Source of the DNA: Sphingobacteriaceae bacterium
GTDB lineage: Bacteria; Bacteroidota; Bacteroidia; B-17B0; Aurantibacillaceae
DNA: 64,000 bases
Assembly (NCBI GenBank): GCA_947480015.1
Contig: CANKBS010000016.1
Location: 1-64,000, forward strand
Direction: 5' to 3'
In this document: piece by piece, positions 42,934 to 56,465 of the stretch
Layout: every line of letters starts with the position of its first letter
Numbering within the stretch: position 1 is the stretch's first letter
Made by a program: the position numbers and the translations under genes
The notes under the pieces: generated by a model
The model's database searches: none
Seen by the model: the letters and a program-made list of their open reading frames with translations, nothing else
Told to the model about the DNA's origin: nothing

Positions 42934-42988
42934 TTATATTTTGATTCCTCCGAGGCCGCAGGCTGAGCTGGGGAATTAGAATATAATA
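42934..42988. repeat. Imperfect palindrome next to left attachment site
   Basis: TATTATATTTTGATTCC (from 42,932) and GGAATTAGAATATAATA (ending 42,988) are inverted repeats with two mismatches, around a GC-rich loop of about 24 bases (CCTCCGAGGCCGCAGG onward). The right arm runs into the left dif-like core, and the left arm together with CACATAATCA upstream resembles a second dif-like site in the opposite orientation. Confidence 0.5.
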
Positions 42989-43003
42989 AACATTAGGTTT
43001 AAT
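42976..43003. other. attL: dif-like XerC/D site
   Basis: The 28-base unit has 11-base arms around the spacer TAAACA (42,987-42,992). It shares ATAATAAACATTA (42,983-42,995) exactly with the right site at 56,361-56,373. The right arm TTAGGTTTAAT is close to XerD-binding arms (E. coli TTATGTTAAAT). No integrase gene is in the element, which suits use of the host XerC/D. Confidence 0.55.
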
Positions 43004-43267
43004 AAGGCTTTCAGAGATTCAAAGCTTGGGAAGCCTTGTCCACAAAGGTTTTTCAAATTTACTGTTTTTCAACGGGAAATACAATTTCGTATTGAGTCAA
43101 ATTTGACTCAAATGTGCATTTTATTTTTATTAAAAAGGGAATTTTCAACCGGTTATAATTACCGAGTTTCAAAAATTCCGTTTTCTTTGGATTTTTACAA
43201 TGTAGATATTCAAGAATTCATTTACAAACCCAAAATCAAAAAAAATTATGAGGTCGAAATTGACTAA
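42983..43267 (+). pseudogene. 3' part of a reading frame split by integration
   Basis: Starting exactly at the attachment core, one frame is open for 94 codons and stops at 43,265-43,267, overlapping the ATG of the next gene by 20 bases as genes in an operon do. It has no start codon at its beginning. Its frame is the same as that of the small ORF which runs into the core at the right end (56,304). Joined, they give a 113-codon gene. The operator-like palindrome inside it argues for caution. Confidence 0.4.
43092..43111. promoter_or_regulatory. Perfect 20-bp palindrome, operator-like
   Basis: TTGAGTCAAATTTGACTCAA is its own reverse complement. It lies 137 bases upstream of the ATG at 43,248, at the left edge of the element. 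It looks like a binding site for a dimeric repressor; no repressor gene is identified for it. Confidence 0.5.
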
Positions 43268-43547
43268 TGAAGCCCTTTTGGCTATTGCTGAATTTACATC
43301 CGATTTAATTACTGATCAGGATGTTTTTAAAAAATATTTTTTTGATCATTTCGGTGTTCAATTAAATTTTACAGATAAGCGAATTTCAATAGCTCCTGGG
43401 TATTCAGATATTGAAGTTCTTGTAAATGAGCTTTCAAAAGCTGAACGAATCAGTGAAAAGCGTTTTATTGAGTATTTAAAACATCTTCTTCCTCATCATT
43501 CATTTGAATATGTTGGTGTTAAGGATCGGAGGATTGTTTTTAAATAA
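43248..43547 (+). CDS. Small cassette-like protein, unknown
   Basis: 99 residues, predicted soluble and helical (LTNEALLAIAEFTSDLITDQDVFKKYFF). I do not recognise a family. Its TAA stop lies inside the first box of an attC-like palindrome (43,542-43,615), an arrangement typical for integron gene cassettes. Confidence 0.55.
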   Translation: MRSKLTNEALLAIAEFTSDLITDQDVFKKYFFDHFGVQLNFTDKRISIAPGYSDIEVLVNELSKAERISEKRFIEYLKHLLPHHSFEYVGVKDRRIVFK

Positions 43548-43615
43548 CGTTTTGCGGCTACCCGTCCGTTTAGCGTGGCCTGTGCGGAGAAAATGGCGGG
43601 TAGGTGCTGTTATAT
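43542..43615. repeat. attC-like imperfect palindrome 1
   Basis: AAATAAC at the left end and GTTATAT at the right end are inverted (six of seven), and GC-GG-CTACCCG pairs with CGGGTAG-GT-GC inside. The general plan (RYYYAAC ... GTTRRRY with imperfect arms) is that of integron attC sites, but the boxes deviate from the consensus. The stop codon of the upstream ORF overlaps it. Confidence 0.4.
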
Positions 43616-43667
43616 GCTGTTGTGGCTTACACAAATTTAAAGAATAAAAAAGAAAAATAAAAAGTTG

Positions 43668-44561
43668 ATGAAGGTAATAGTACAATTTTCAGGCGGTAAA
43701 GACAGCGAGGCATCTTTGATATGGGCCGTGAATAAATATGGAGTTGAGAAAGTGGAGGCCGTTTTTTGCGATACTGTATGGGAAAATCAATTGACCTACC
43801 AGCATATAATGGACGTAATAAAAAAGCTGGGTGTAAAATATGTGATGCTGACTACCAAAAAGTTTGATGGCTTTCTCGGAATGGTAGCGAAGAAAAAGCG
43901 CTTTCCATCCACTAAGGCGCGGTTTTGTACCGAAGAATTAAAGACAAAACCAATGATTGACTATGTTTTGCAGCACTCAGAACACTTGATTTTAATACAA
44001 GGAGTGAGGGCAGACGAGAGTAAAGACCGTGCAAAGATGAAAGCGCAATGCACATATTTTAAATACTACTACCAGCCATACGGCAAGGACAAAAAGGGGA
44101 AATTAAAATTTCACACATACCGCAAAAAAGACGTTTTTAAATGGAGGGAACAATACGCTGACGATATTATAAGACCTGTATTTACTTGGACGGGACAGCA
44201 GGTAATTGACTACATAATCGAAAACGGCCACAAGCCTAACCCGCTTTATTCAATGGGAATGAACCGCGTTGGATGCTTTCCATGCGTGATGTGCAAGCTG
44301 TCAGAAATTAAACAGATAGCCGACAGGTTCCCGGAGCATATCAAGAAAGTGGCCGATGCTGAAAAGAAGTACAACACCAGCTTTTTTACTCATGGCAAAA
44401 TACCGGACAGATATTGCAGCAAGGAAAAAAACGGCGTGAGATACCCGACCATTGAAGATGTAGTAAACTATGTGCAAAGATTCAAAGACCAGATAGATGC
44501 TTTTAAAGAGGAAACGACCGGAAACACAAGCTGTATGTCATTTTATGGAACGTGCGAATGA
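43668..44561 (+). CDS. PAPS-reductase-family protein (mobile-element type)
   Basis: 297 residues from the ATG at 43,668 (a TTG just before it is also in frame). The PP-loop VQFSGGKDSEASLIWA binds nucleotide. FCTEELKTKP and LIQGVRADESKDR fit the phosphoadenosine phosphosulfate reductase/DndC-like superfamily. CFPCVMCKL near residue 205 and two more Cys at the end may hold a metal cluster. Such genes are common in phages and islands, sometimes linked to DNA modification; no other dnd gene is nearby. It lies between two attC-like palindromes. Confidence 0.75.
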   Translation: MKVIVQFSGGKDSEASLIWAVNKYGVEKVEAVFCDTVWENQLTYQHIMDVIKKLGVKYVMLTTKKFDGFLGMVAKKKRFPSTKARFCTEELKTKPMIDYVLQHSEHLILIQGVRADESKDRAKMKAQCTYFKYYYQPYGKDKKGKLKFHTYRKKDVFKWREQYADDIIRPVFTWTGQQVIDYIIENGHKPNPLYSMGMNRVGCFPCVMCKLSEIKQIADRFPEHIKKVADAEKKYNTSFFTHGKIPDRYCSKEKNGVRYPTIEDVVNYVQRFKDQIDAFKEETTGNTSCMSFYGTCE

Positions 44562-44610
44562 CAACTTTTTATTTTTCCTCCGTAATGCTAAACGGGTCAC
44601 GGCCACAATT

Positions 44611-44661
44611 GCATATAACGAATAGCTTGGAGCCGTTTTAATGGCTCCAAGGTTATGTTAT
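44611..44661. repeat. attC-like palindrome 2 / strong hairpin
   Basis: CTTGGAGCC (44,626-44,634) pairs perfectly with GGCTCCAAG (44,643-44,651) around an 8-base loop. Outside the stem lie ATATAAC and GTTATGT (six of seven inverted match), as the outer boxes of an attC site would. It could alternatively be a plain terminator of the PAPS-like gene, though no T-run follows. Confidence 0.4.
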
Positions 44662-44677
44662 TTAAAACCTAATAATC

Positions 44678-44818
44678 ATGAAAAAATGGATAGCACATAA
44701 CAACTTTTGCCGATTAAATAAATGTTGGCTTTTTTGGGACTTCAACGAAAATCGTTGGCTTTCCTCAAAAAAAGACCTTTCGGTTTACCCGAAAATTTTA
44801 AAAATTAAAAAATTTTAA
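44678..44818 (+). CDS. 46-aa Trp-rich small protein of the phage operon
   Basis: ATG at 44,678, stop just before the next ATG at 44,820. Sequence MKKWIAHNNFCRLNKCWLFW and on to a Lys-rich end. It is short, and only its tight spacing to the next gene supports it. No family is known to me. Confidence 0.4.
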   Translation: MKKWIAHNNFCRLNKCWLFWDFNENRWLSSKKDLSVYPKILKIKKF

Positions 44819-44819
44819 T

Positions 44820-45176
44820 ATGTTTAAAAATTATAGATATAACGGGGATATTACAGGATTTAAAATTTTTATTCTTTTACTTTTTTTTGAATTTCATTTA
44901 TTGACTTTAGGTTTATTAATAAAAACCTTCTTAGGCAATTTAGATTATTGGTTTACTTTCTTTGGTATTATTACCAAACTTTTTTGTTTTCCTTTTTTTA
45001 TAATTTGGATTCTCTTAACTATTCCTTGGATTTGTATAAGGTTAATTAGGATGTTTAAAAAAGGGTATATGGAACTTGATCCAATTGCATTGGATTTAAT
45101 AGATAGAATACCTAATGACAATACTTTAATTTTTTTAAGTATAATTTTATATGCAAATATTTACTTATGGAAGTAA
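44820..45176 (+). CDS. Phage membrane protein, multi-helix
   Basis: 118 residues with several hydrophobic stretches (FKIFILLLFFEFHLLTLGLL, LFCFPFFIIWILLTIPWICI, TLIFLSIILYANIYLW). It overlaps the next gene by 10 bases. Sits at the start of the compact phage operon, before the replication gene. Function unknown. Confidence 0.6.
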   Translation: MFKNYRYNGDITGFKIFILLLFFEFHLLTLGLLIKTFLGNLDYWFTFFGIITKLFCFPFFIIWILLTIPWICIRLIRMFKKGYMELDPIALDLIDRIPNDNTLIFLSIILYANIYLWK

Positions 45177-45571
45177 ACGAAATTCTTCAAGAAACTTTCA
45201 GAGAGTTTTATGGGCCTGAAAATGGTCCCCGTTATTATCAATATTTTTCTTCTGGTGATTTACGTTGTTCTACATTTATAGAACCAATTATTCTTAACCG
45301 AATTTTTAAACGTGCTTTGCATTTAGTCATTAAAAATTCGCTACCAGATGCAGAAAAAAAGCTTGAAAAAACAATTAATCAATTAGCAAATTTTCGAATT
45401 TATTCACCTTATCGTTTTCAACTTTATCATTTTTTTTTAAAAAAATGGCCCGGATATAAGGAAGCTTTTTTTAATAAGCATGATGATTTAACAATCATCT
45501 TAAAATCACAATCAAAATATAACACAAAAAAATTGATAGCCTATGAACTTGCAAATTTTAATAAACAATAA
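45167..45571 (+). CDS. Phage protein of unknown function
   Basis: 134 residues, basic, predicted soluble and helical (EILQETFREFYGPENGPRYY; ADAEKKLEKT-like helix). Overlaps the upstream gene by 10 bases and the downstream gene by 29 bases, so translation is probably coupled. AT-rich codon choice like the rest of the phage block. Confidence 0.55.
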   Translation: MEVNEILQETFREFYGPENGPRYYQYFSSGDLRCSTFIEPIILNRIFKRALHLVIKNSLPDAEKKLEKTINQLANFRIYSPYRFQLYHFFLKKWPGYKEAFFNKHDDLTIILKSQSKYNTKKLIAYELANFNKQ

Positions 45572-45788
45572 TTTTAATGAATTATTTCAAGCAACTATGG
45601 TACTTTGTTGCTTACCATTTATTTATATAATCTTAATGTTATTAAGACATTATATTTTTAATAAATTACTTAATTGGAGCCGTATAAATGAGGCTGTAGA
45701 TAAAAATGATTTATATTATATAATACTTTATTTATTTGCATTTATCATTATAATTTTAGCCATTCTTTTAATGCCTCTGTATTTATAA
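45543..45788 (+). CDS. Phage two-helix membrane protein
   Basis: 81 residues. Two hydrophobic helices: VLCCLPFIYIILMLLRHYIF and YYIILYLFAFIIIILAILLM, joined by a polar loop. Overlaps the preceding gene by 29 bases; four bases separate it from the replication gene. Unknown role. Confidence 0.55.
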   Translation: MNLQILINNNFNELFQATMVLCCLPFIYIILMLLRHYIFNKLLNWSRINEAVDKNDLYYIILYLFAFIIIILAILLMPLYL

Positions 45789-45791
45789 TAT

Positions 45792-47498
45792 ATGGATACA
45801 ATTGTATTTAGATTGCACGATGTTAAAAAGCATTTTTCTTTAGTAAATCAAATTATTGCATCAACTACCGGATATACTATTAATTTAGAATCTGTAGATG
45901 TTACAACTCCATTAAAATCATTATTTCAAAATTTAATTGAACAAATAGAGCAAGGTGTGGTATTGCAAAAAGGTGATATTATAGAAATTATGGATCATAA
46001 GCATGATGGCATTAATTCAGTTTCTGAATTTTTAAAAATGAAAACTGTTATTTTCGGAGATACTAATCGTAAGCTTAACGCTGCTTATCGTGGAAAAAAT
46101 AAAATGCGTTCTTCTAATTATGATCTTACAACTTCAATTTGTTATGATCGTAATTTTATTGAATGGAATTTTTCTATTCCTAAATTTCTTTATGGTACTA
46201 ATCTTTTTCAATTTGTTCCGCATCCTGGTGAACATAATTACAATCATACTGTCATTAATTGGTCTATGTATAAACGAGATCTTTTTGATCGTTTTATGAC
46301 CTTTGCTAAAAATTTTTTTTCAAAAAATTTCATGCTTGGTGGCGAACATAAATTGGACCTTATGGAATTGGAAATTAATCGAATTGACTTTTGTTGGAAT
46401 CAATTTTTTCGTTCTAAGAATGAAGCTTTAGTTCGTCTTGGTTATATTGAAAAAATGAAGTTGCGCGGTGTACGTTCCGGTTCTGAGCGTTTTACAGAGT
46501 ATAATGAGAGCACTATGTGGATTACAGATGGTTATAGTAAAAAAGTTTATCATAAAGGTGCGGAATTTAGAAAAAACGATATGAAGGAACTCACCAAAAA
46601 AGGACATTTTTCTAAAAATGAAATTGAAAATATGGCAGATATGGCCGACAGGTGTTTACGTTTTGAAGTAACATTAAGAAAAAAACATCTTTCTTATTTA
46701 TATCAAACTACTTTGTGGCGTTCTAAATCAGCCGGTCAAAATGAATTCCGGGAGCGCGCAAAGGATGGCCGTAAATTTTACAATCTTAAAAAAGAAAATT
46801 TACCTGAGTATGAGAAGCAATGTAAGCAACTTGGAAAATCTGATATTGATGGCCGTATTAATGCTTATATAATAAATGAAGCTTGTAAAAATTACAGACG
46901 TTGTTTTGTTCTGGGAAATAGTGATTCTGTAAATTATTTCAATGAAAATTTTTCACCAATTGAATTGGATCCAAAAAATAAGGAAATAAGATTGACTAAA
47001 GAAGTCTGCATGAATAAACAAATTTTTAATTTATGGCATGATTTTTTAGAAAATTTTATTTTAGAAACTGAGGTTAAATTCCTTCCTTCTTACGATGCTT
47101 TAGAGGAAAAAATAAGAAAACACAATGAATCTCGATCCATATATCGGGAAACTTTCGATGTAAAATATCTCGAAAGTATTGATAAGGCCACAAGGATGGC
47201 CGCAACAAGAATTTTTCGTTCTTTAAATATTCTCGAAAAAAATACTATTGAGGAAATTGAAAAATTTCAGCTTTTAAGCCGCACAACCATTTGGCGGCTT
47301 AAAAAGGATCTTAAGACTTTAAAAATGGATTTAAATGTAAATATGCATGGTGATAGCGAACGAGTTGCCTTGGCGAGTGATTTTATATCTGCGGCTTATG
47401 ATGACGAAGGCCGCATGATTAGAGAAGAGACAGGCTTTTTAAATTATAGTTCATTCATAATTGATATGAAGAAAGTTCAAAACAAAACATATTGTTAG
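45792..47498 (+). CDS. Phage replication initiator, gene II/X-like
   Basis: 568 residues. The middle part holds DLMELEINRIDFCWNQFF, then VYHKGAEFRKND, and CLRFEVTLRKKHLSYL: the R-x-D, Y-x-K-x-x-E and R-F-E-x-x-L-R pattern of phage/plasmid replication proteins of the gene II/X (Phage_CRI/Phage_X) type. These nick one strand and start rolling-circle replication of ssDNA phage genomes. The C-terminal 100 residues include a helix-turn-helix-like stretch (LLSRTTIWRLKKDLKTL). The catalytic Tyr cannot be fixed without alignment. Confidence 0.72.
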   Translation: MDTIVFRLHDVKKHFSLVNQIIASTTGYTINLESVDVTTPLKSLFQNLIEQIEQGVVLQKGDIIEIMDHKHDGINSVSEFLKMKTVIFGDTNRKLNAAYRGKNKMRSSNYDLTTSICYDRNFIEWNFSIPKFLYGTNLFQFVPHPGEHNYNHTVINWSMYKRDLFDRFMTFAKNFFSKNFMLGGEHKLDLMELEINRIDFCWNQFFRSKNEALVRLGYIEKMKLRGVRSGSERFTEYNESTMWITDGYSKKVYHKGAEFRKNDMKELTKKGHFSKNEIENMADMADRCLRFEVTLRKKHLSYLYQTTLWRSKSAGQNEFRERAKDGRKFYNLKKENLPEYEKQCKQLGKSDIDGRINAYIINEACKNYRRCFVLGNSDSVNYFNENFSPIELDPKNKEIRLTKEVCMNKQIFNLWHDFLENFILETEVKFLPSYDALEEKIRKHNESRSIYRETFDVKYLESIDKATRMAATRIFRSLNILEKNTIEEIEKFQLLSRTTIWRLKKDLKTLKMDLNVNMHGDSERVALASDFISAAYDDEGRMIREETGFLNYSSFIIDMKKVQNKTYC

Positions 47499-47539
47499 TA
47501 ATTTTGATGCATCGAATTAATCATTCAAAAAACATTAAA

Positions 47540-47692
47540 ATGAAAAGAATTTTCAGATGGATCATGAAACCGCTTAACTTGGTTCTAGTGGTTGTAGGCT
47601 TTTTAGCTTTTAAATTTTTCACAAATCCCGCTTTTAAAGCTACGGCAATCGCTCGTTTTCCTTTTTTAGCATCATTAGGCGGAAAAGCATAA
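47540..47692 (+). CDS. 50-aa membrane peptide upstream of capsid gene
   Basis: From the ATG at 47,540; an upstream TTG at 47,492 in the same frame is less likely. A basic N-terminus (MKRIFRWIMK) precedes one hydrophobic helix (LNLVLVVVGFLAFKFF), then a short positively charged tail. It fits a minor virion membrane protein. It precedes the capsid gene by 23 bases. Confidence 0.5.
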   Translation: MKRIFRWIMKPLNLVLVVVGFLAFKFFTNPAFKATAIARFPFLASLGGKA

Positions 47693-47714
47693 TTAACTCT
47701 TAAAAAAAAACAAA

Positions 47715-48698
47715 ATGGACATTTTAGTTGGCAGACAAAAACAATTTATTCTTCAAAATAAATGTGTGCGTGGTTTAAATTTTACTGTGGAATTAATTCA
47801 TGGTACATTAAATACTGACTTAGTTTTAGCAGATTTATTGCCTGAAAATATTATTATTGGTATGACATTGGTTCGCGGTGGCCAAAATATGGTTGTAATG
47901 AACCCAGCCAATTTACGCATCCTTCATTTGGATTCCACTTTCTATCGTGCAAATTGGAATAAAATTGCTCCGAATGTGGCTACTTTAGCCAATTGGACCG
48001 AAATTGTTCAAAAAGGTGCCGCTGCTTATAATAAACGCATTGTTGAATTAGCTTTTGATTTTCATGGTTGTTATGATCTTACCGGAACCGATGAGTTAAT
48101 TGTAGACATTAACTTTCAATCAAATGCTGTTTCTGCTTCTGCAGATACTAACAGTAAATTAGTTGTTACTGAAAATATAGATGATTTTGGATTTGAAAAA
48201 TTCACTCCTTTTTTCAATATTAAACAGATTCAACCTGGTGAGTCTACTTTTCAAGATTCTTACAACAATTTAAAAGAATTGAGAATTATCAATTTAGATA
48301 AAACTAGCATGCTTTATTCAGCTGCTCCGGTTACACAAGCTTCTTTGACTTCTGAATTAGCTTCTTATGTTGATGTTTATTCGACTATGTTGACTAAACG
48401 TGTTAATTCTTTCTTTAACCAAGCTGAATGTGATGCCCGTACACAATGTTTCGACTTATATAATGGCGACATTGCTCGTACCGCAAATTTGAATTTGACT
48501 TTGGCTAGTACTAACATCAATTCAAATAAAAATTACATTGTTTCTCGTCTTGCTTATCAAGATGCTCGTTTGTTTAATTTATATCAGGCTAAAGTTGCTG
48601 CAGATTCTCTGCAAGCCGCTGCAGATTCTGGTGTACCTATTCCAAACAATCAGATTGCACAAGTTTCGCAAGCGATTAGCAATAATACTGTAAATTAA
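47715..48698 (+). CDS. Candidate major capsid protein (double jelly-roll type)
   Basis: 327 residues, beta-strand-rich with few charged runs, e.g. GLNFTVELIHGTLNTDLVLA, IVELAFDFHGCYDLTG, DELIVDINFQSN. It has no signal peptide or membrane helix, and size fits the coat protein of the FLiP phage. It is followed by its own strong terminator, as expected for the most expressed structural gene. In gene order it sits between the replication gene and a ladder of small membrane proteins. Assignment is from context and fold impression, not from a motif. A structure prediction is the test. Confidence 0.6.
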   Translation: MDILVGRQKQFILQNKCVRGLNFTVELIHGTLNTDLVLADLLPENIIIGMTLVRGGQNMVVMNPANLRILHLDSTFYRANWNKIAPNVATLANWTEIVQKGAAAYNKRIVELAFDFHGCYDLTGTDELIVDINFQSNAVSASADTNSKLVVTENIDDFGFEKFTPFFNIKQIQPGESTFQDSYNNLKELRIINLDKTSMLYSAAPVTQASLTSELASYVDVYSTMLTKRVNSFFNQAECDARTQCFDLYNGDIARTANLNLTLASTNINSNKNYIVSRLAYQDARLFNLYQAKVAADSLQAAADSGVPIPNNQIAQVSQAISNNTVN

Positions 48699-48721
48699 TA
48701 TCTTGTGTTCCTTCATCATAA

Positions 48722-48754
48722 AATGCCGGCCGGCTCCGGTCGGCATTTTTTTTA
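48722..48754 (+). terminator. Rho-independent terminator after capsid gene
   Basis: The stem AATGCCG-G-CCG / CGG-T-CGGCATT with loop GCTC is followed by a run of eight T. It lies 24 bases after the capsid candidate's stop. It probably sets the high capsid-to-downstream ratio. Confidence 0.85.
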
Positions 48755-48765
48755 AAATTTAAAAA

Positions 48766-49122
48766 ATGGGCTATTTAGCAAATTTATTCAACGGTAAAAA
48801 ATTAGGCAATGTTCTTGATACTTTCAAGGAAATTCGCATTCATAAAATCGATGCTAAATATGCTTTTAAAACTGCAAAAGTTGACGATAAATATTATGCA
48901 GCTAATCAATTAGCAAATCAGGGAATAGATTCTCAGCATAATACATTTATGGATGCCTTGCCAAGTATGTTTCAAAGTGTTGGCGGTACTGTTTCAAATT
49001 TATTTGGAAATGGCAAGGGTGCCCTTGGGCAATCAATTACACCGGGCAATTCAAACATAATTGTTTATGTTCTTGGTGCGGTTGCTGTTTTATTTATGTT
49101 TATGACAATTAGAAAAAAATAA
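48766..49122 (+). CDS. Phage tail-anchored membrane protein 1
   Basis: 118 residues. Polar, helical N-terminal part (LGNVLDTFKEIRIHKIDAKY) with a Gly/Ser-rich linker, and a single C-terminal helix NIIVYVLGAVAVLFMFMTIRKK ending in basic residues. Anchoring by the C-terminus into the virion inner membrane fits a minor structural protein. The next gene starts 1 base after the stop. Confidence 0.6.
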   Translation: MGYLANLFNGKKLGNVLDTFKEIRIHKIDAKYAFKTAKVDDKYYAANQLANQGIDSQHNTFMDALPSMFQSVGGTVSNLFGNGKGALGQSITPGNSNIIVYVLGAVAVLFMFMTIRKK

Positions 49123-49123
49123 A

Positions 49124-49591
49124 ATGCCAAACGTTGGTGATATAGTAGGTGATATTAAAAATAGTGTTTCTAACGCTGTTAATAATGTTGTTACAACCGT
49201 ACAAAATACGGCCGGTAATATTCAACAAAATGTACAAGGTGAAATTAATATAGTTAAAGATGCCGTACAAGAGGGTATTGATTCTATAAAAAATACTCTT
49301 AATCCAACTGCTCCTGTTGATCCTATTGTCATACCTCCAAAATTTAATCCTGCCGGTACTCAAATAAAAGGCGGTTTGGATGGTGTTGTTCCTGGTTCTG
49401 GTAATTTTGATGAGAATTTTCAAACCGATAAAGGGATTATGACTACTAGCGCACTTAGTGCGCTTGGTTTAAATTCTTGGCAAGTTAACCAAAATTATCC
49501 GGAGCCTGACTTAACCGAAGCTTCTAAGCCATTGATTTTAGGTTTAGCCGTTGCTGGTGCTTTACTTTTACTTTACTTTTTTAAAAAATAA
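49124..49591 (+). CDS. Phage tail-anchored protein 2 with coiled-coil N-terminus
   Basis: 155 residues. The first 60 residues form an amphipathic helix with regular Val/Ile (VGDIVGDIKNSVSNAVNNVV, then VKDAVQEGIDSIKNTL). A Pro-rich linker follows, then a C-terminal helix KPLILGLAVAGALLLLYFFKK-like with basic end. Probable minor virion protein, possibly linking capsid and membrane. Confidence 0.6.
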   Translation: MPNVGDIVGDIKNSVSNAVNNVVTTVQNTAGNIQQNVQGEINIVKDAVQEGIDSIKNTLNPTAPVDPIVIPPKFNPAGTQIKGGLDGVVPGSGNFDENFQTDKGIMTTSALSALGLNSWQVNQNYPEPDLTEASKPLILGLAVAGALLLLYFFKK

Positions 49592-49593
49592 AT

Positions 49594-49812
49594 ATGCGTT
49601 TTTTTTATCTAATAACTGAGGACCAAGCCAATCAAATTGGCTCTTTTCCTTATACTCATGGTAAGGATTTTGATCCTTTGGAATTTCCACAAGGTGATGG
49701 CATTTATGCTATCGATGCCATTTTAATGGATCGCATTGGCCATTTTGAACAATTTTCTCATTTAGATTTTTCTAAATTGGAAATTATTAACGAACTCAAT
49801 TTAAAACAATAA
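49594..49812 (+). CDS. Small phage protein, soluble
   Basis: 72 residues, acidic, no membrane helix (MRFFYLITEDQANQIGSFPY; FPQGDGIYAIDAILMDRIGH). Sits between two tail-anchored proteins, 3 bases after and before its neighbours. Function unknown. Confidence 0.5.
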   Translation: MRFFYLITEDQANQIGSFPYTHGKDFDPLEFPQGDGIYAIDAILMDRIGHFEQFSHLDFSKLEIINELNLKQ

Positions 49813-49815
49813 ACT

Positions 49816-50070
49816 ATGTCAAAAATTTTTGGTGGTAAAATATCACATTGGCTTGAAAATGCCGCTCAATTTACCGGTGACACCGGGAGTGCCGGAAATA
49901 AGATGTTAAATAATATCTCTGGTAAGGTTAATACTTTTTTAACTGATTCTACAAAGGGAATTGGTATTAAAGTTGATAATTCAAGCCTTTTAAAAATTGG
50001 TGGCGTTGGAGCTGCTCTTATTACCCTTTGGTATTTCATGACAAAAAAGAAATCACGTAAAAACCGCTAA
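49816..50070 (+). CDS. Phage tail-anchored membrane protein 3
   Basis: 84 residues. Polar Gly/Asn/Ser-rich N-terminal region and one C-terminal helix (LLKIGGVGAALITLWYFMTKK) with a basic tail (KSRKNR). Same plan as the two proteins at 48,766 and 49,124. Confidence 0.58.
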   Translation: MSKIFGGKISHWLENAAQFTGDTGSAGNKMLNNISGKVNTFLTDSTKGIGIKVDNSSLLKIGGVGAALITLWYFMTKKKSRKNR

Positions 50071-50072
50071 AT

Positions 50073-50363
50073 ATGAAATTTGCAATAAAATTATTATTCA
50101 GGTTAATTTTTCAATTTGTTCCAATTGACGAAGAGGATTCAAGCCGTATTTTAGGTAAGGCCAAAGATTGGGCCGATACTGTCCGGATTGATGATGATGA
50201 GGACAATAAAACTCCTCAAATTTATCGTACAATTGGAAAATATTGTAATATGTGGGGCGTTCAACTTGGTATGTGTGTTGTTTATTTATTCGCATATCAA
50301 AATATGAAGTCAGCTTTCATGGAATCAAAGGATGATGATGATGATAAATTTTCAAATAAATAA
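50073..50363 (+). CDS. Small phage protein with membrane segment
   Basis: 96 residues. Starts with a hydrophobic/basic stretch (MKFAIKLLFRLIFQFVP), has an acidic middle (RIDDDEDNKTP), a likely helix WGVQLGMCVVYLFAYQNM, and an acidic end (ESKDDDDDKFS). Unknown; presumably membrane-associated. Confidence 0.5.
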   Translation: MKFAIKLLFRLIFQFVPIDEEDSSRILGKAKDWADTVRIDDDEDNKTPQIYRTIGKYCNMWGVQLGMCVVYLFAYQNMKSAFMESKDDDDDKFSNK

Positions 50364-50380
50364 AATTTAAATAAAAAATC

Positions 50381-50521: not shown

Positions 50522-50523
50522 TT

Positions 50524-50649
50524 ATGAAAAAAATAGTTTCAAAAAGTTTATTTCGCAAGCTTTCAGCTGCCGGAAAAAAAGCGGTAATTAAAATCGCTAA
50601 AAAAATGACTTCTCGACGTAAAAAAACTACTAAAAGACGTCGTTATTAA
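50524..50649 (+). CDS. 41-aa Lys/Arg-rich phage peptide
   Basis: MKKIVSKSLFRKLSAAGKKA then MTSRRKKTTKRRRY. Nearly half of the residues are Lys or Arg. It resembles the DNA-condensing peptides of small ssDNA phages (J-type). It lies in the structural part of the operon, 2 bases after and 1 base before its neighbours. Confidence 0.5.
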   Translation: MKKIVSKSLFRKLSAAGKKAVIKIAKKMTSRRKKTTKRRRY

Positions 50650-50650
50650 A

Positions 50651-50881
50651 ATGGCCTTATTTGGTTTAATATCTTTTAGTGGTTTTAAGAAATTAAAACC
50701 AAGTGAGAAAAAAAAACTTCGAAGTGTGGGCGATCTTATAGATTCGTCAAACTTTCAAAGTTTTCTTCCTAAAAAAGTTAGTAAACAAAAAAAAGAAAAA
50801 TATAAAAAACAAACTGAACTATACCAAAAACAAGCCGGTTTTCGTAGGTATTTAAATATGGGTGGTTTTTTAGATAAATAA
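50651..50881 (+). CDS. Basic phage protein
   Basis: 76 residues, Lys-rich (GFKKLKPSEKKKLRSVGDLI; KKVSKQKKEKYKKQTELY), no membrane helix after the first few residues. Could bind DNA together with the 41-aa peptide upstream. Unknown family. Confidence 0.5.
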   Translation: MALFGLISFSGFKKLKPSEKKKLRSVGDLIDSSNFQSFLPKKVSKQKKEKYKKQTELYQKQAGFRRYLNMGGFLDK

Positions 50882-50885
50882 AAAT

Positions 50886-51428
50886 ATGGCACTTAATAAA
50901 AATATGGATTCGCGTGAAGCGAAAGGATGGGGTCAATTAGTCATTTATGCTATTATTGCTCTTGTCATTTTACCAATCTTTTTAAATGTTGGCAAAATTT
51001 TTAAGTTTGGAACTGGTTTCCTAACTAATTTTTTTTCAGATAAAACTGCAACCGATCAAGTTCCTGTTATTCAAGAGCAAGTTGTTGATCCTGTTAAGAA
51101 ACTTTTAGTTAAAAATAAATGTACTAAAGATGATGCTTGGTTTACCTCTACAGCTTTAAAGCTTGAACAAGCAATGCAAGGTTGGGGCTCTGATCGTGGA
51201 ACAATTTCACCGTTAATTTATGCTTTGAATAGTGATGATGATGCTAGGGCCCTTTATATTGCTTTTGGTGTTCGTATAAATACAGATGGCAATAATGAGG
51301 CCGGTGATTTAACTCAGTGGTTTGGTTGGGAGTTCTCCAATTTACCAGAGTGGCTCGGCGGTTCTTCAAATATGGTTTCTTTAATTAAAGATAAATTTCA
51401 AAATAGTGGTATTCCACTTCCTTGGTAA
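50886..51428 (+). CDS. Phage protein with N-terminal anchor and annexin-like motif
   Basis: 180 residues. One N-terminal helix (LVIYAIIALVILPIFLNVG) and a soluble rest. LKLEQAMQGWGSDRGTISPL resembles the annexin-repeat start (AMKGLGTD-type). A few unrelated phage proteins share this pattern, so I take it as a hint only. Possibly a penton- or membrane-linked virion protein. The next gene's ATG overlaps its stop. Confidence 0.5.
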   Translation: MALNKNMDSREAKGWGQLVIYAIIALVILPIFLNVGKIFKFGTGFLTNFFSDKTATDQVPVIQEQVVDPVKKLLVKNKCTKDDAWFTSTALKLEQAMQGWGSDRGTISPLIYALNSDDDARALYIAFGVRINTDGNNEAGDLTQWFGWEFSNLPEWLGGSSNMVSLIKDKFQNSGIPLPW

Positions 51429-51802
51429 TGACAAATAATAGTGTAGATTTTGTAAGAACAAAGGCCTTAGTAATGGATTTTATTGCCAATGCGCTTGGTG
51501 TTACTCCTATTGGAGCTTCTTATTTATTAAGCGGTCCCGGCGGTCCTTTGGGCGTTGGTGTCGCTTTAAATAACGCTGCTTATTTTGGTGATTTGGATAT
51601 AAATTTGAATACTGCTTTAGGCACTAATTTTAAAATTTATACACCTGGATCAGGAATCATAGAAAATAGTGGCGTTATGAATGCCGGTTATAATGGACCT
51701 ATTATTTTACCATTTTCATATAATTCAATTATTTTTAATCGATTTGATTGCAATGCCGGTTCTCATACTTGGCGTTTTCAAGGATGGATAGTAACTTGGT
51801 AG
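51428..51802 (+). CDS. Beta-rich phage protein, possible vertex protein
   Basis: 124 residues from the ATG overlapping the preceding TAA (an in-frame TTG lies two codons earlier). Gly/Asn-rich and beta-type, with a Trp-containing end (GSHTWRFQGWIVTW), no membrane helix. Its position before the membrane and lysis genes suits a capsid vertex or spike base. Speculative. Confidence 0.45.
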   Translation: MTNNSVDFVRTKALVMDFIANALGVTPIGASYLLSGPGGPLGVGVALNNAAYFGDLDINLNTALGTNFKIYTPGSGIIENSGVMNAGYNGPIILPFSYNSIIFNRFDCNAGSHTWRFQGWIVTW

Positions 51803-52077
51803 ATAAAACATTAAAAGGCTTTTATTTGCTTTTTAAGGACTTATTAGCCGTCCCCTTGTCTTTTATCAAGTGGTCGGCTTTTGTCGCATTAGGAAGCTTA
51901 TTAGTTGCTTTATTAGTCGCTTTAGCACCTTTATTTTTGGTTGGTTACATTTTTACTGTTTTTTTTGATCTTTTCAAAAAACCAGATTTAAAACCAAAAA
52001 AAGAAGATAAATATTCGGCATTTCCTGATTTCCTTAAAAGTGGTTTTTCGGCAATGTTAAAAAGACAAGAAAATTAA
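51784..52077 (+). CDS. Phage membrane protein with two helices
   Basis: 97 residues from the ATG at 51,784, overlapping the preceding gene by 19 bases. Two hydrophobic segments: AFVALGSLLVALLVALAPLF and its continuation FLVGYIFTVFFDLF, then a Lys/Pro-rich cytosolic-type tail. Unknown function. Confidence 0.5.
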   Translation: MDSNLVDKTLKGFYLLFKDLLAVPLSFIKWSAFVALGSLLVALLVALAPLFLVGYIFTVFFDLFKKPDLKPKKEDKYSAFPDFLKSGFSAMLKRQEN

Positions 52078-52078
52078 A

Positions 52079-52264
52079 ATGGCCGTTTTAGCATCACTTA
52101 AAGTAGGTGAAAATTTTAAGTTCTATAAAGTAACTCAAAATTATCAAATAACCGGTTCTTTTAAGGTTGGTGAAACACTTTTTATTACTTATAGATCGCG
52201 TTCTACTTTGCGCGTTGGTGATTATAAAAGTACTCGAATTTTTAAACGTATTATCAGAGTATAA
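52079..52264 (+). CDS. 61-aa basic phage protein
   Basis: Beta-strand-like and basic (LKVGENFKFYKVTQNYQI; TYRSRSTLRVGDYKSTRIFK). Shares its last base with the next gene's ATG. No membrane helix. Function unknown. Confidence 0.5.
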   Translation: MAVLASLKVGENFKFYKVTQNYQITGSFKVGETLFITYRSRSTLRVGDYKSTRIFKRIIRV

Positions 52265-52887
52265 TGGAACAAACTTTTTTAAATATATCCAAAGATCGTC
52301 CGGATGAGCAATTTGGCCATTTTACCGGAAAAGAACTTTATTCACGTTCTCTTGATGCGCCAAAAGAACATGAGTTATCTGAGCAAACTGTTAATGCTTG
52401 GAATATTGTTCGAGATTATTATAATAAACCTTTAAAAATCAATTCAACTTATAGGACTAAGCTTCATGAATTAAGTCTTAAAAAAGGTTTTATAGGCGAG
52501 CATTATTATAAACGTGCTATCGATGGCGCGTTTTTAACATCGGTGGATCAAGAAACTTTGTTACCTGATTTCATTGCTCAAATTTTAACACAAGGCACAT
52601 TATTTAAAAAACTACGTAACGCCGGTATTAATGGCTTTGGAGTTTATGATACTTTTGTACATTTAGATTCAAGGCCTCAAAATGGCCTTGCTCATAGAGA
52701 TGAGTTTGGGACTTTTGCTTTTTGGGATAATAGAACAAAAATTGATGGCGTACAAAAGCCTTTTTTTAAATCTTTGTGGGATGGTTATGGCAAGGAGGAT
52801 GGTGATTTAGGTGTGCCCAAAAACGATTCCAGGATCGTAACACTTTTTTTAATTGGCTCTTTTGTAGCTGCTTTTTTTTTTAATTAA
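52264..52887 (+). CDS. M15-type peptidase, probable endolysin
   Basis: 207 residues. A Zn peptidase pattern of the M15 family: INSTYRTKLHE, then EHYYKRAIDG with His and Asp ligands, and FVHLDSRP with the H-x-D motif. Such enzymes cut peptide cross-links of peptidoglycan. An unusual feature is the C-terminal hydrophobic helix (VTLFLIGSFVAAFFFN), which would anchor it in the virion or host membrane. Likely used for DNA entry or lysis. Confidence 0.65.
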   Translation: MEQTFLNISKDRPDEQFGHFTGKELYSRSLDAPKEHELSEQTVNAWNIVRDYYNKPLKINSTYRTKLHELSLKKGFIGEHYYKRAIDGAFLTSVDQETLLPDFIAQILTQGTLFKKLRNAGINGFGVYDTFVHLDSRPQNGLAHRDEFGTFAFWDNRTKIDGVQKPFFKSLWDGYGKEDGDLGVPKNDSRIVTLFLIGSFVAAFFFN

Positions 52888-52905
52888 AGACCGTAAAAAT
52901 AATTA

Positions 52906-53691
52906 ATGAGATTAATCAATTTAATATCTTTTGGCGGCATTAAGCCTACACCCTATACAGATGCCTTAAAATCAAAGGTAATTTTAGCCGGCGGTTTATT
53001 TAATCCAACTTTAGAAAGTGCTTTTAAAACTTTTGAGGGTGCAATGGGTTCTGAATTAGTAAAATATGATAGATTAAATTTTTACGGTGTTAATAATTCA
53101 ATCGCTGCTATTTATGACTTTATTAATCCTACTATTACTGTTTCAGCTGTTGCCTCTCCAACATGGACAAATAATTATGGATTTACCGGAAACGGAACTA
53201 GTTCTTATATAAATACGCGTTTTAACCAATTAACTTCAGGTACTAATTATACTCAAAATTCTAATTCCTTTGGAGCTTATTTTTTAATTAATAAAGGTGC
53301 AACTACAGAGGTTAATATGGGACTTTCGAATGGCTCTAACTTAACTTATTTAATGCCAAACAATGCCGGTTCTTTTTATTTTGTTGCTAATCAGGGAACC
53401 AATACAACAACAACCGGCCAAAATACTTCCGGATTAATTTCAGTACGTAGAACTTCTAGCACTAATGTTGAGGGATACCGTAATTCTTCTTTGATTAGTT
53501 CTATTACTGTATCTTCGGTAGCTTTAATTAGTCAAGAATTTTTCTTAGGCGCATATAATGCATCGGGATCAGCTGCTGGTTTTTCAAGTAATCCTTTTGC
53601 ATTTAGTTACATGGCATCAGGTGATATAAATGTTACTACATTATACAATGCTGTTCAAGCTTTTGCCACTACTATGGGATGGGCTGTTTAA
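52906..53691 (+). CDS. Spike / receptor-binding-like protein (LamG-like)
   Basis: 261 residues, rich in Asn, Ser, Thr, Gly. From about residue 85 the strands resemble concanavalin/LamG-like folds (WTNNYGFTGNGTSSYINTRF; SSLISSITVSSVALISQEFF). The N-terminal third (KSKVILAGGLFNPTLESAFK) may bind the capsid. The high Ser/Thr/Asn content and gene position suit a host-recognition spike. Confidence 0.5.
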   Translation: MRLINLISFGGIKPTPYTDALKSKVILAGGLFNPTLESAFKTFEGAMGSELVKYDRLNFYGVNNSIAAIYDFINPTITVSAVASPTWTNNYGFTGNGTSSYINTRFNQLTSGTNYTQNSNSFGAYFLINKGATTEVNMGLSNGSNLTYLMPNNAGSFYFVANQGTNTTTTGQNTSGLISVRRTSSTNVEGYRNSSLISSITVSSVALISQEFFLGAYNASGSAAGFSSNPFAFSYMASGDINVTTLYNAVQAFATTMGWAV

Positions 53692-53700
53692 ATTTTTTTT

Positions 53701-53898
53701 ATGACAAGTGAAATTTTATTTTCAATAATAGTAGGTCTTTTAACCATTATCTCATATTTTTTGAGATCTATTGGTACTGATATAAAAGAAATAAAGACTT
53801 CAATTGTTTCCCATGGTGAAAAAATTGCCGTTCACGATGTTCATCTGGACAATATAAGGGAAGATGTTAAAAAGCATGACATTGCCCTTTCTAAATAA
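53701..53898 (+). CDS. XhlA/holin-like phage protein
   Basis: 65 residues. One N-terminal helix (ILFSIIVGLLTIISYFL) followed by a heptad-rich helix (TDIKEIKTSIVSHGEKIA). Single-helix proteins with a coiled-coil end, like XhlA, assist phage lysis. Follows the spike gene and precedes the lipoprotein gene. Confidence 0.5.
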   Translation: MTSEILFSIIVGLLTIISYFLRSIGTDIKEIKTSIVSHGEKIAVHDVHLDNIREDVKKHDIALSK

Positions 53899-53930
53899 AT
53901 TTTTCTGTATTTTTGAGGAAAATTACTCAA

Positions 53931-54323
53931 ATGAAAAATTTTAAACTTTTTTTAAAATCTTATCTTTTAGCTTCTCTTTTTGCTTTAGGAATTTTTTTAA
54001 TTTTTTCTGCATGCAAAAAACAAACTTCTGGCTCTGCCGTAATTTGGTATGACAAAACGGCTTCTATCGGCTTATTAAAAGTCGGCTCAACTTCTTTAAA
54101 TTACTATTTTGATGGTTCTTTGATTGGATCATCTGCCTCCGGGACTTTTTGGACAGGACCTCCCGATTGTAGTTCAACCGGGGTTATAACAATAAAAAAA
54201 GACCTTGGCGGCGCCAAAATCAAAAATTTTTCTTATACTATAAAAGATCAATTAAACCGAATTGTTTATTCGGGATCAATGGACATAAAAGATGCTAGCT
54301 GTAATAGTTTGCAGCTTCAATAA
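53931..54323 (+). CDS. Phage-encoded lipoprotein
   Basis: 130 residues from the ATG at 53,931. Signal peptide with lipobox LIFSACKK. The exported part is beta-type (SGSAVIWYDKTASIGLLKVG; ASGTFWTGPPDCSSTG). Similar short lipoproteins exist in Bacteroidota hosts, so it may be a cargo gene, for example for superinfection exclusion. It ends directly next to the convergent minus-strand module. Confidence 0.55.
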   Translation: MKNFKLFLKSYLLASLFALGIFLIFSACKKQTSGSAVIWYDKTASIGLLKVGSTSLNYYFDGSLIGSSASGTFWTGPPDCSSTGVITIKKDLGGAKIKNFSYTIKDQLNRIVYSGSMDIKDASCNSLQLQ

Positions 54324-54563
54324 TTATTCAAAAATTTCCGGGTGTGTTTCGAATATTCGAAGCAATTTAAAGGGAGTAATTTTTTTCAATTTATAAAGTT
54401 CAGCTGCTTTATGCAAAAACAAGTCAATACCTGTTTTAAGCTTCATCCCTTCACTTGAACAAATTAAAACCCACTGAAATTTTGTCCCAGATTTCATGTG
54501 CACTTGTGATTGTAGTTTTTCTTTTCCTGTTGAGGATTGTAGTTTGTATTTTTTTTCTTTCAT
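54324..54563 (-). CDS. Small protein of the minus-strand phage module
   Basis: 79 residues, basic at the N-terminus (MKEKKYKLQSSTGKEKLQSQ), soluble. Its stop codon abuts the stop of the lipoprotein gene. It follows the RadC-like gene in the same direction. Unknown. Confidence 0.5.
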   Translation of the reverse strand: MKEKKYKLQSSTGKEKLQSQVHMKSGTKFQWVLICSSEGMKLKTGIDLFLHKAAELYKLKKITPFKLLRIFETHPEIFE

Positions 54564-54653
54564 GTTTTATTTATTTACGTTATGGTTAACTAGGTACGGG
54601 TGTTTAAGGTCTGGGAGTTAACCCAATAAGTTAAAACTTACTGAGTTTTTAAA

Positions 54654-55124
54654 TCAAATTTCTCCTTCGTCTGAAAAAGAATAATAACTGTTTTCCCCTA
54701 TTATTATATGATCTAATAATAAAATTTGTAGAATTTTTCCCGCTTCTTTTATTTGTCTTGTGATCTGTTTATCTGGATCACTTGGTACGATTTGTCCACT
54801 TGGGTGATTGTGAGCGATTATAATTCCGCTTGCATTTGCTGTTATTGCTATACTCATAATTACCCGAACGTCAATAACCGTTCCCGCAATTCCACCTTGT
54901 GAAATTTTAACCCACCCTAAAACGCTATTAGCTCTGTTTACAAGCAATAAAATGCATTCTTCGTGGTGTTCTATTGTTTCAGCGTTAAAAACCTTTAAAA
55001 ATTCATTGTAAGCGTCTTGGCTACTTTTAATTTTTGGTCTGTCAATTGCCTTAACTTTGGTTTTATAACTAATCATTACCTCTGCTAAATTTTCCGATTT
55101 TTCAATTTTATATCCTGTTTTCAT
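54654..55124 (-). CDS. radC: RadC-like JAB/MPN protein
   Basis: 156 residues. The JAMM-type metal site is IIAHNHPSGQIVPSDPDK, and the family core (CILLLVNRANSVLGWVKIS; IILLLDHIIIGENSYYSF-like) is complete. RadC-like proteins are frequent in phages and mobile islands; the biochemical role is still unclear despite the DNA-repair name. It lacks the N-terminal HhH region of chromosomal RadC. In the minus-strand module with three small genes. Confidence 0.8.
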   Translation of the reverse strand: MKTGYKIEKSENLAEVMISYKTKVKAIDRPKIKSSQDAYNEFLKVFNAETIEHHEECILLLVNRANSVLGWVKISQGGIAGTVIDVRVIMSIAITANASGIIIAHNHPSGQIVPSDPDKQITRQIKEAGKILQILLLDHIIIGENSYYSFSDEGEI

Positions 55125-55135
55125 GGTTTTAAATA

Positions 55136-55167
55136 CGGGAGCCGTTTAACCGGCTCCCGATTTTTTT
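55136..55167 (+). repeat. Strong hairpin CGGGAGCCG / CGGCTCCCG
   Basis: A 9-bp perfect stem with a 6-base loop and T-run on the + strand. The neighbouring genes run on the minus strand, where no T-run follows, so it is not a normal terminator for them. It may stop + strand read-through, or regulate RadC translation. Confidence 0.55.
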
Positions 55168-55381
55168 AGTTTAATAATAATGAAATTACTTCTTCACATT
55201 TTTGCTCAGATGCTAAAGGTCCGACAAGTGTTTGTTCTTTATCATTCAAATAACTAACCTTTAAAAACCAATTTCTTTCTGTGCTTCCTTCCTTTTCTTT
55301 TTGTTGAAATGGTGAAATCATTTTTATTCCTTTGCTTTGTAGATAAACTACTGTTCCGTTCATTAATGTTACTTTTTTCAT
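55166..55381 (-). CDS. Small phage protein
   Basis: 71 residues (MKKVTLMNGTVVYLQSKGIK; WFLKVSYLNDKEQTLVGPLA), soluble. Sits upstream of the RadC-like gene on the minus strand. No known family. Confidence 0.5.
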   Translation of the reverse strand: MKKVTLMNGTVVYLQSKGIKMISPFQQKEKEGSTERNWFLKVSYLNDKEQTLVGPLASEQKCEEVISLLLN

Positions 55382-55462
55382 TTGTTTTGATTCGATTCAC
55401 CGATATATCGAGAGATTTTAGTTAAAATTTAAAATATATTTATTGCTGTCTTTTGTGTCATT

Positions 55463-55666
55463 TTACATTAATTTAAGTTGTGTATTTTGTTTTCCTTTTA
55501 GCCTTTGTATTTCAGAGTGAAGCGAATTTATAGACTCTGTTTGTTGGTGTAAGCATTCATACAAATGAGTTATTAAATCTTTTTTTTCTTCAATCTCTGT
55601 TTTTCCCACTGAATGTCTGGGAAGATTTTTTGTTTGCTGTCCTATTCGTTCTATTAGATTTTTCAT
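55463..55666 (-). CDS. 67-aa coiled-coil phage protein
   Basis: From the internal ATG at 55,666 (MKNLIERIGQQTKNLPRHSV), preceded by an A-run leader. The open frame continues further upstream, but there it crosses the palindromic region and reads unlike protein. The C-terminal half is a heptad-type coiled coil (QTESINSLHSEIQRLKGKQN). First gene of the minus-strand module. Confidence 0.5.
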   Translation of the reverse strand: MKNLIERIGQQTKNLPRHSVGKTEIEEKKDLITHLYECLHQQTESINSLHSEIQRLKGKQNTQLKLM

Positions 55667-55677
55667 TTTTTTTTTCT

Positions 55678-55953
55678 GATGCCTGTGGGTGAGTTTCTCG
55701 TCTCGCTGTGCCAAAGGATCATAAAACTTAAAAAAGGCCTCAGGGATATAAAACCGAGGGCCCCGAAATTTTGAAAAAATTTTGGGTTTCGGTGTGCGTT
55801 TTTGATAGGGCAGGGCTTTGTCCCTGACCATCAAAAAAAGGCTTTGCATAGGCCGGCTTTGTCCGGCCGGCAAAAAGGGTTGTTTATGCTCCCTGAGGCC
55901 TTTTTTAAGTTTTACCTTTGCACGAGCGAACGAGAAAAACTCACCCTGGCATT
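55678..55953. repeat. 275-bp nested palindrome with three internal hairpins
   Basis: Perfect 24-bp inverted arms at 55,723-55,746 and 55,890-55,913 extend outward imperfectly to 55,678 and 55,953. Inside lie three hairpins: 55,763-55,792 (CCGAAA/TTTCGG), 55,799-55,837 (TTTTTGAT/ATCAAAAA with CAGGG/CCCTG inside) and 55,851-55,868 (GGCCGG/CCGGCC). Two loops share the text CTTTGT. Multi-hairpin intergenic regions like this carry the replication origin and packaging signal of ssDNA phages. This one has no gene in it. Confidence 0.6.
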
Positions 55954-55984
55954 CAGTAAAAAAATGAAAAAAGAAAAATTCCAT

Positions 55985-56303
55985 TGGATGGGAGCCGGTT
56001 GAGGCGACCTTTCTAAAAAAAGCGATCCGGATTGTCGTGGAAATCCTTTTTTATCTAAATTAGATTCATTCTAAATAAAAAAGATTGAAACAAAAGCCGG
56101 GTTTTTTATCGCCATAATCTTATTTATAATCATTCTAAATTTCATTTTTAACAATATTGAATGAAATTTTATTTTATATTTGTTGAGGCGAATCAAAATG
56201 CCTACATGATGTGAAGTCTTATAACATATCACATCATGTTTCAGAATGAAACAAATTAGTAATTATTTTAACAATTTTAACAATAATAAAACAATCTAAT
56301 TTT
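55985..56303. promoter_or_regulatory. Promoter/operator region of the integration-split ORF
   Basis: TATATTTG at 56,175-56,182 matches the TAnnTTTG -7 element, on the + strand. Inverted repeat ACATGATGTGA (56,204-56,214) / TCACATCATGT (56,229-56,239) is perfect over 11 bp, and GTTTCA-GAA-TGAAAC lies directly behind. ATTCTAAAT words recur between 56,068 and 56,150. The sites point to a regulated transcript that runs into the ORF at 56,304. Confidence 0.5.
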
Positions 56304-56465
56304 ATGCAAAATTCAATTTATACGGCAAATCAGCCGTTTTTTTTGAAATCTGAAACGGACATAATAAACATTATGTTAAGTAGTATTGGTAAAAGTAAAA
56401 GTATCATTACTGATACTTTCGACATTTATACAGATCTTTTTGCGCTCTGCTCTACCTTGCCATAA
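56304..56465 (+). CDS. Small ORF that crosses the right attachment site
   Basis: 53 codons in the integrated state. The first 19 codons (MQNSIYTANQPFFLKSETD) lie inside the element; then come the attachment core and host-side sequence. With the circular element, the same start would run into the 94 codons at 42,983-43,267 and give a 113-residue protein. It is preceded by a promoter-like element and an operator-like repeat. The 3' part overlaps the small lipoprotein gene on the other strand, so the integrated version of the protein may be accidental. Confidence 0.4.
   Translation: MQNSIYTANQPFFLKSETDIINIMLSSIGKSKSIITDTFDIYTDLFALCSTLP
56354..56381. other. attR: dif-like XerC/D site
   Basis: 11-base arms AACGGACATAA and TTATGTTAAGT around the spacer TAAACA. 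The right arm differs from the E. coli XerD arm (TTATGTTAAAT) at one position. The core ATAATAAACATTA is identical to the left site. The right arm is probably the chromosomal half of the host dif site. Confidence 0.6.

Follow-up and report, generated by a model that had tools for sequence, protein, structure and literature searches.

A probable temperate FLiP-type phage genome integrated at the chromosomal dif site of a Sphingobacteriaceae bacterium

We analysed a 64-kb stretch of a Sphingobacteriaceae bacterium genome (assembly GCA_947480015.1, contig CANKBS010000016.1, positions 1 to 64,000; hereafter the window). It contains an element of 13,378 bp bounded by two dif-like 28-mers (42,976-43,003 and 56,354-56,381), about 88% of which is coding and whose genes lie mostly on the forward strand. 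A preliminary description of this DNA had proposed a tailless phage of the FLiP (Finnlakeviridae) type, integrated as a prophage with ends at 42,983 and 56,373; both positions fall inside the dif-like 28-mers. The features on which the identification chiefly depends are as follows.

42,976-43,003, forward: attL, with XerC arm TTAGAATATAA, core TAAACA and a degenerate XerD arm TTAGGTTTAAT, which is probably the phage arm
45,792-47,498, forward: Rep, a G2P/CRI-type rolling-circle initiator, 568 aa, intact
47,715-48,698, forward: predicted major capsid protein, FLiP-type double jelly roll, 327 aa
48,729-48,744, forward: terminator-like hairpin with a T-run after the capsid gene, identified from sequence
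56,354-56,381, forward: attR, the chromosomal dif, AACGGACATAA TAAACA TTATGTTAAGT

The ends of the element

Two dif-like matches were observed in the window, where 0.01 would be expected from shuffled sequences. The right-hand one, attR, is the only site that the 3.77-Mb genome yields when up to three mismatches are allowed, and attL, which has the same core, matches dif with three mismatches over 21 nt. A dif-like site is present in 30 of the 40 genomes of the genus, in many of them within about 300 bp upstream of ung; here the distance is 264 bp. The 30 dif sites, when aligned, have an almost constant XerD arm, TTATGTTAA(A/G)T. This arm is carried by attR, while that of attL deviates at positions with little or no variation. 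The weak XerD arm of attL may therefore have come from the phage, the insertion restoring a good dif at attR. The empty site is seen in three congeneric species (G009, G013 and G039), in which a homologue of the left-flank gene sits beside dif and ung, at some 130-200 bp from dif. In the window the left-flank gene (42,079-42,327) is parted from dif and ung by the 13.4-kb element and by a repeat-like stretch on its left. Two stretches near the dif of a congener (G001, locus L077, about 2,811-2,932 and 5,499-5,610) resemble this one (42,803-42,927), which lies close to attL on its left side. The XerC arms of that congener and of another (G017, locus L081) start with ACGG, like the attR of the window and unlike those of most congeners, and may mark other dif-integrated elements.

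No integrase was found among the element proteins scanned against Pfam, PHROGs, NCBIfam and PADLOC-type libraries, and the 64-kb window has no tRNA genes. Since no encoded recombinase was found, the XerC/XerD of the host are the likely agent of integration, as Kejzar et al. propose for the phiCjT23-like prophages (PMC9719478).

The replication initiator and the capsid protein

Three other elements found here enter into the comparisons. One (L002/L013, genome G168) is a 3.3-kb contig with the end of a Rep gene, a capsid gene and genes at the gp9, gp10 and gp11 positions; another (L009, G302) is a full prophage-like run with a GH24 lysozyme and a tyrosine recombinase nearby; and the last (L086/L088) is the uncultivated virus genome (UViG) IMGVR_UViG_2595698407, 11.7 kb long, with an M15 lysin and a GTA-type holin. 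Scans of IMG/VR with alignments returned FLiP and one 11.7-kb UViG, whereas scans of the same database with the single capsid protein, with Rep, or with the capsid protein of L009 gave no match.

Rep has a Phage_CRI/G2P domain (Pfam, E 4e-7, over the curated cut-off), in agreement with the gene II/X-like replication gene reported previously. In a tblastn search of 50,697 phage records it matches only FLiP (two records) and FLiP-2, at 37-38% identity over 229 aa (residues 75-303; E about 3e-34), the identity to FLiP gp15 being 37%. This is the strongest single tie to FLiP, and it is independent of gene layout.

The 327-aa protein, named earlier as the capsid candidate with its own terminator (the hairpin and T-run at 48,729-48,744 listed above), belongs to no Pfam or PHROG family. 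Among phage records tblastn finds the FLiP capsid gene alone, below significance (E 0.6), and among all PDB sequences phmmer gives a single, weak match, the FLiP capsid protein 5OAC (E 0.016, colinear, residues 41-276). A profile made from two sequences (the window and G168) matches FLiP/FLiP-2 with an hhalign probability of 94.5% (E 7.5e-8, one comparison), and one made from two sister elements, with neither the FLiP nor the window sequence, has 5OAC as its only PDB match (E 6.5e-9). An AlphaFold model built from four sequences has two beta-sandwich domains. Foldseek ranks 5OAC first for this model (E 1.7e-9), a rank that is partly non-independent because the FLiP sequence is in the alignment, then the phiCjT23 capsid 7ZZZ (E 7.7e-6), PRD1 and PR772. 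VIA-align superposes 246 residues on 5OAC with Z 9.4 but an rmsd of 15 Å, so how the two domains are placed relative to each other should not be trusted. The N-terminal domain (residues 1-156) can be superposed on the capsid proteins of PRD1 and STIV, with about 120 residues aligned at 3.1-3.9 Å and Z 7.2-7.8, middling on the tool's own scale; as far as the model goes, these matches are more independent than the rank of FLiP. The preliminary description would have been contradicted by a protein without a double jelly roll or with a match to another coat-protein class. The model, albeit of low confidence, has two beta-sandwich domains and the FLiP capsid is the top PDB match, so that the 327-aa protein is, as modelled, a FLiP-type double jelly-roll capsid protein.

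The absence of tail genes, of a Zot-type ATPase and of a packaging ATPase had also been suggested. No tail gene was recognised in the scanned proteins, tail-family matches being low-scoring and confined to low-complexity membrane proteins and the lysin, and the element's open segments of at least 50 aa are all free of P-loop motifs. The latter is expected because FLiP itself has no packaging ATPase (PMC7654751; PMC5894146). Judged by the features that define the FLiP group of Yutin et al. (2018), the element thus has an M13/G2P-type rolling-circle Rep, no P-loop of a packaging ATPase, and a capsid protein with sequence, profile and fold matches to 5OAC, the fold match coming from a low-confidence model.

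Because sequence, profile, structure, gene order and the empty site agree, we identify the element, very probably correctly, as a temperate FLiP-type phage genome of 13,378 bp, with a predicted double jelly-roll capsid and a G2P-type Rep, integrated at the chromosomal dif. The identification in the preliminary description thus stands.

Other genes and non-coding features

The remaining features, from left to right, are these.

43,248-43,547, forward: 99-aa protein, the first gene after attL (open reading frame)
43,665-44,561, forward: PAPS-reductase-family protein, likely cargo (a moron); PF01507 E 1.5e-22, phrog_424 E 1e-50
44,820-45,788, forward: three small genes between the cargo and Rep genes, for proteins of 118 aa (two transmembrane helices), 134 aa and 81 aa (two transmembrane helices) (open reading frames, hydropathy)
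47,492-47,692, forward: 66-aa basic protein with one transmembrane helix, between the Rep and capsid genes as in L002 (62 aa) and L009 (58 aa)
48,766-50,070, forward: three proteins of FLiP gp9 type (118, 155 and 84 aa), each with a hydrophobic helix near the C-terminus, and a 72-aa protein (comparison, hydropathy)
50,073-50,363, forward: 96-aa protein with a hydrophobic stretch and an acidic tail, at the gp10 position; homologue at the same position in L002 (E 1e-9, small comparison set)
50,524-50,649, forward: 41-aa very basic protein ending in RRRY (18 K/R, 0 D/E)
50,886-51,428, forward: putative gp11 homologue, 180 aa, with an N-terminal transmembrane helix; 15.2 bits against the gp11-position gene of L009
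51,422-51,802, forward: 126-aa protein at the penton (gp12) position, placed by position, its sequence matches being within noise
51,748-52,077, forward: 109-aa protein with two transmembrane helices, shortly 5' of the lysin (hydropathy, position, weak match to the same-position L086 gene)
52,264-52,887, forward: M15-type peptidase lysin with a C-terminal membrane helix, 207 aa (PF08291, phrog_894, L086 homologue)
52,906-53,691, forward: 261-aa spike or receptor-binding candidate (position, phrog_26223, partial podovirus similarity)
53,701-54,323, forward: 65-aa protein with one transmembrane helix and 136-aa lipoprotein-like protein (hydropathy, library scans)
54,324-55,666, reverse: block of a 79-aa protein, a RadC-family protein (54,654-55,124; PF04002 E 5e-38, phrog_10276), a 71-aa and a 67-aa protein
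55,676-55,965, no strand assigned: long imperfect hairpin, 290 nt, a candidate complementary-strand origin or packaging signal
56,020-56,107, forward: Flavo-1 RNA (RF01705), 47.7 bits against a gathering score of 42

Downstream of the capsid gene the gene order appears largely to follow that of FLiP and of the three other elements. Compared with the structural genes of Finnlakeviridae, gp9 is assigned by sequence, gp11 by a weak profile match, and gp10, penton and spike by position. The proteins at 48,766, 49,124 and 49,816 share the gp9 design of a C-terminal hydrophobic helix and a basic end. In comparisons within a small set, the 84-aa protein (49,816) scores 16.3 bits against FLiP gp9 and the 118-aa protein 9.6 bits against the gene that follows the capsid gene in L002. 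When three gp11-type proteins are combined in a profile, its match to FLiP gp11 is weak (probability 34%). Basic proteins like the 41-aa one also occur in L009 and L086, where they end in RRRRY and KKRRY, and from its composition it is possibly a DNA-binding protein.

The 109-aa protein may be a holin. The lysin, which belongs to another enzyme family than that of FLiP and is placed before the spike candidate, scores 22.4 against PF08291 (E 1.4e-4), just below the cut-off of 23.2, and matches the endolysin family phrog_894 (E 1e-9) as well as the M15 lysin of L086, whose own Pfam score is 77. Together with its C-terminal helix this fits the M15 endolysin with a membrane tail foreseen in the preliminary description. 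The spike-like protein it mentioned corresponds to that at 52,906, part of which is 31-42% identical to large Flavobacterium podovirus proteins that carry the annotation putative YapH. A simple hydropathy rule gives seven single-helix and three two-helix membrane proteins, excluding the hydrophobic core of RadC. The earlier count of about ten small membrane proteins therefore holds, although three of them have two helices and not one. So many predicted membrane proteins fit the internal membrane that, with a spiked pseudo T=21 capsid, characterises Finnlakeviridae, without proving a membrane.

Searches of Pfam, PHROGs, NCBIfam and PADLOC gave nothing meaningful for the 99-aa protein. The PAPS-reductase-family protein is 53% identical to a Bacteroides phage protein and also resembles the defence-associated proteins SspD, BrxP and DndC. 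Because the partner genes of these systems were not recognised in the element, we read it as common phage cargo. A gene 48% identical to it lies in an unannotated 7.7-kb fecal phage record (MT837675.1, H12, 5,972-6,874). In L086, small genes occupy the same place as those at 44,820-45,788.

The largest non-coding stretch of the element, 55,667-56,381, contains both the hairpin and the Flavo-1 RNA. Folded as DNA, 55,670-56,080 gives -100.9 kcal/mol (z -12 against shuffles). The most stable windows of FLiP and L088 are likewise largely intergenic, and the strongest hairpin of FLiP is intergenic. From its position and stability our guess is that the hairpin could be a complementary-strand origin or a packaging signal. 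That it might be a genomic repeat was rejected, there being no copy elsewhere in its own genome or in 99 other genomes. The Flavo-1 RNA is the sole copy found in this genome, while related genomes have up to about 36. We dropped the idea that it is a general companion of FLiP-type phages: no copy reaches the gathering score in FLiP, L088, L009 or 12 dif loci, and many genomes hold several copies.

Alternative readings, known relatives and host range

Several observations weigh against the reading as a temperate FLiP-type phage genome. The four-sequence capsid model is of low confidence (mean pLDDT 52.7, pTM 0.39) and has FLiP's own sequence in its alignment, and the single-sequence model (pLDDT 34) is useless. 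The penton and spike assignments depend only on position or weak similarity, no repressor was recognised in Pfam, PHROG and NCBIfam-type scans of the element, and the opposite-strand RadC block and the size of 13.4 kb (FLiP, 9.2 kb) leave room for added or composite parts. The element might be a FLiP-type prophage past virion production, either a remnant or an element domesticated and retained at dif, to which the RadC block, the cargo gene at the left end and the want of a recognised repressor would all be suited. We regard this as unlikely, though it deserves serious consideration, as Rep, capsid, gp9- and gp11-type proteins and lysin are all open full-length frames in an element that is about 88% coding. 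It is more doubtful that two dif-integrated elements lie in tandem with a decayed dif between them, a FLiP-type phage with either a small RadC/hairpin/Flavo-1 element on its right or a PAPS-reductase element on its left. FLiP lacks a counterpart of both the reversed block (54.3-55.7 kb) and the cargo gene, and some congeners carry other material near dif, but no third dif-like site occurs between the ends (a weak copy of a repeat, at 45,559, falls within an open reading frame) and FLiP-group contigs reach 17 kb according to Yutin et al. (PMC5894146). An inovirus-like, filamentous prophage, which would share the Phage_CRI Rep, the dif ends and the many small membrane proteins, was rejected as barely conceivable, given that neither the Zot/pI-type ATPase characteristic of Inoviridae nor any other P-loop was found in open segments of 50 aa or more, a lysin is present, Rep is nearest to FLiP, and the 327-aa jelly-roll capsid matching FLiP largely refutes it.

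If the element is a temperate FLiP-type phage, its life cycle might run as follows. Host XerC/XerD would recombine the double-stranded replicative form of the phage with dif, rebuilding a good dif on the right (attR) and leaving the weak XerD arm at attL, which would make for a stable prophage and a still functional dif. After exit, Rep would nick the circle and start rolling-circle replication. The single-stranded DNA would be packaged without an ATPase into an icosahedral capsid, whose inner membrane would bear the many single-helix proteins, and the membrane-tailed M15 enzyme may open peptidoglycan at entry or lysis.

With FLiP and FLiP-2 the element shares a G2P-type Rep, a double jelly-roll capsid of similar length (about 22-27% identical, varying with the alignment), post-capsid membrane proteins of gp9 and gp11 type, a lysis-type enzyme, the absence of a packaging ATPase and one strong intergenic hairpin. 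Unlike them it is integrated, 13.4 kb long as against 9.2 kb, equipped with cargo genes and found in what is apparently a different host order, and its M15 peptidase stands in place of the lytic transglycosylase of FLiP. Integrated relatives are more numerous than the preliminary description supposed when it stated that few or none with mapped ends were known. Kejzar et al. (2022) described 57 prophages of Flavobacterium that are phiCjT23-like, measure 6.0-8.4 kb and are flanked by dif on either side (PMC9719478). Like the element, phiCjT23 and these prophages are temperate, with dif at both ends and a Rep gene followed by a capsid gene, and the phiCjT23 capsid is the second-best fold match. 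They differ in their smaller size, their Flavobacterium hosts and a shorter capsid chain (239 residues in 7ZZZ), and sequence searches gave no match to phiCjT23 at E up to 10. Makela et al. (2026) reported FLiP-like putative prophages with conserved synteny in Pedobacter, Sphingobacteriaceae and Arcticibacter (Sphingobacteriia) (PMC13269007), and Yutin et al. (2018) FLiP-group contigs in Bacteroidetes genomes. By description these also have a FLiP-type capsid, an M13-like Rep, Bacteroidota hosts and a prophage context; the portions of the two papers available give no mapped ends. L086/L088 and L009 share with the element Rep, capsid, basic protein, gp11-type protein and membrane proteins, and L086 also the M15 lysin. 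Their capsids are about 15-21% identical to that of the window, and L009 differs further in its lysozyme and nearby recombinase.

The element is thus a divergent new member of a published kind of phage, integrated ones included. What is new is an apparently different host order, the large size with mapped ends, the M15 lysin and the PAPS-reductase/RadC cargo. It is improbable, in our estimation, that it also represents a separate, family-level lineage of temperate FLiP-type single-stranded DNA phages in a Bacteroidota order not known before as a carrier, with a genome among the largest with mapped ends and the 290-nt hairpin beside the Flavo-1 RNA as complementary-strand origin or packaging signal. 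FLiP-type phages tie single-stranded DNA replication to the double jelly-roll lineage of PRD1 and adenovirus, and isolates are few. The prophage described here, whose ends are exact, whose empty site is defined and whose key genes are full-length, widens their host range to apparently another order of Bacteroidota, and offers a testable case both of XerC/XerD use by a membrane-containing single-stranded DNA phage and of the genome size limit of this capsid type.

A search of 87 genomes from the host's family and order gave no further carrier of this Rep. As family and order hold the same 87 genomes, the order appears to consist of one family, and the host is, from these genome sets, probably outside Flavobacteriales and Sphingobacteriales. 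Related or similar Rep sequences occur in other settings. A weak match was seen in G517 (E 1e-3 over 47 positions). On a contig of a Bacteroidales metagenome-assembled genome (L011, 6,233-9,464), a FLiP-type Rep accompanies a tyrosine-integrase-like gene and a small helix-turn-helix-like protein, no capsid gene being recognised there; this locus is possibly a plasmid-like integrative element with the same type of Rep. A relative of the FLiP-type Rep also adjoins a serine-recombinase-like gene in L012 (1,490-4,369), a contig of 5.6 kb that includes a LOOT RNA.

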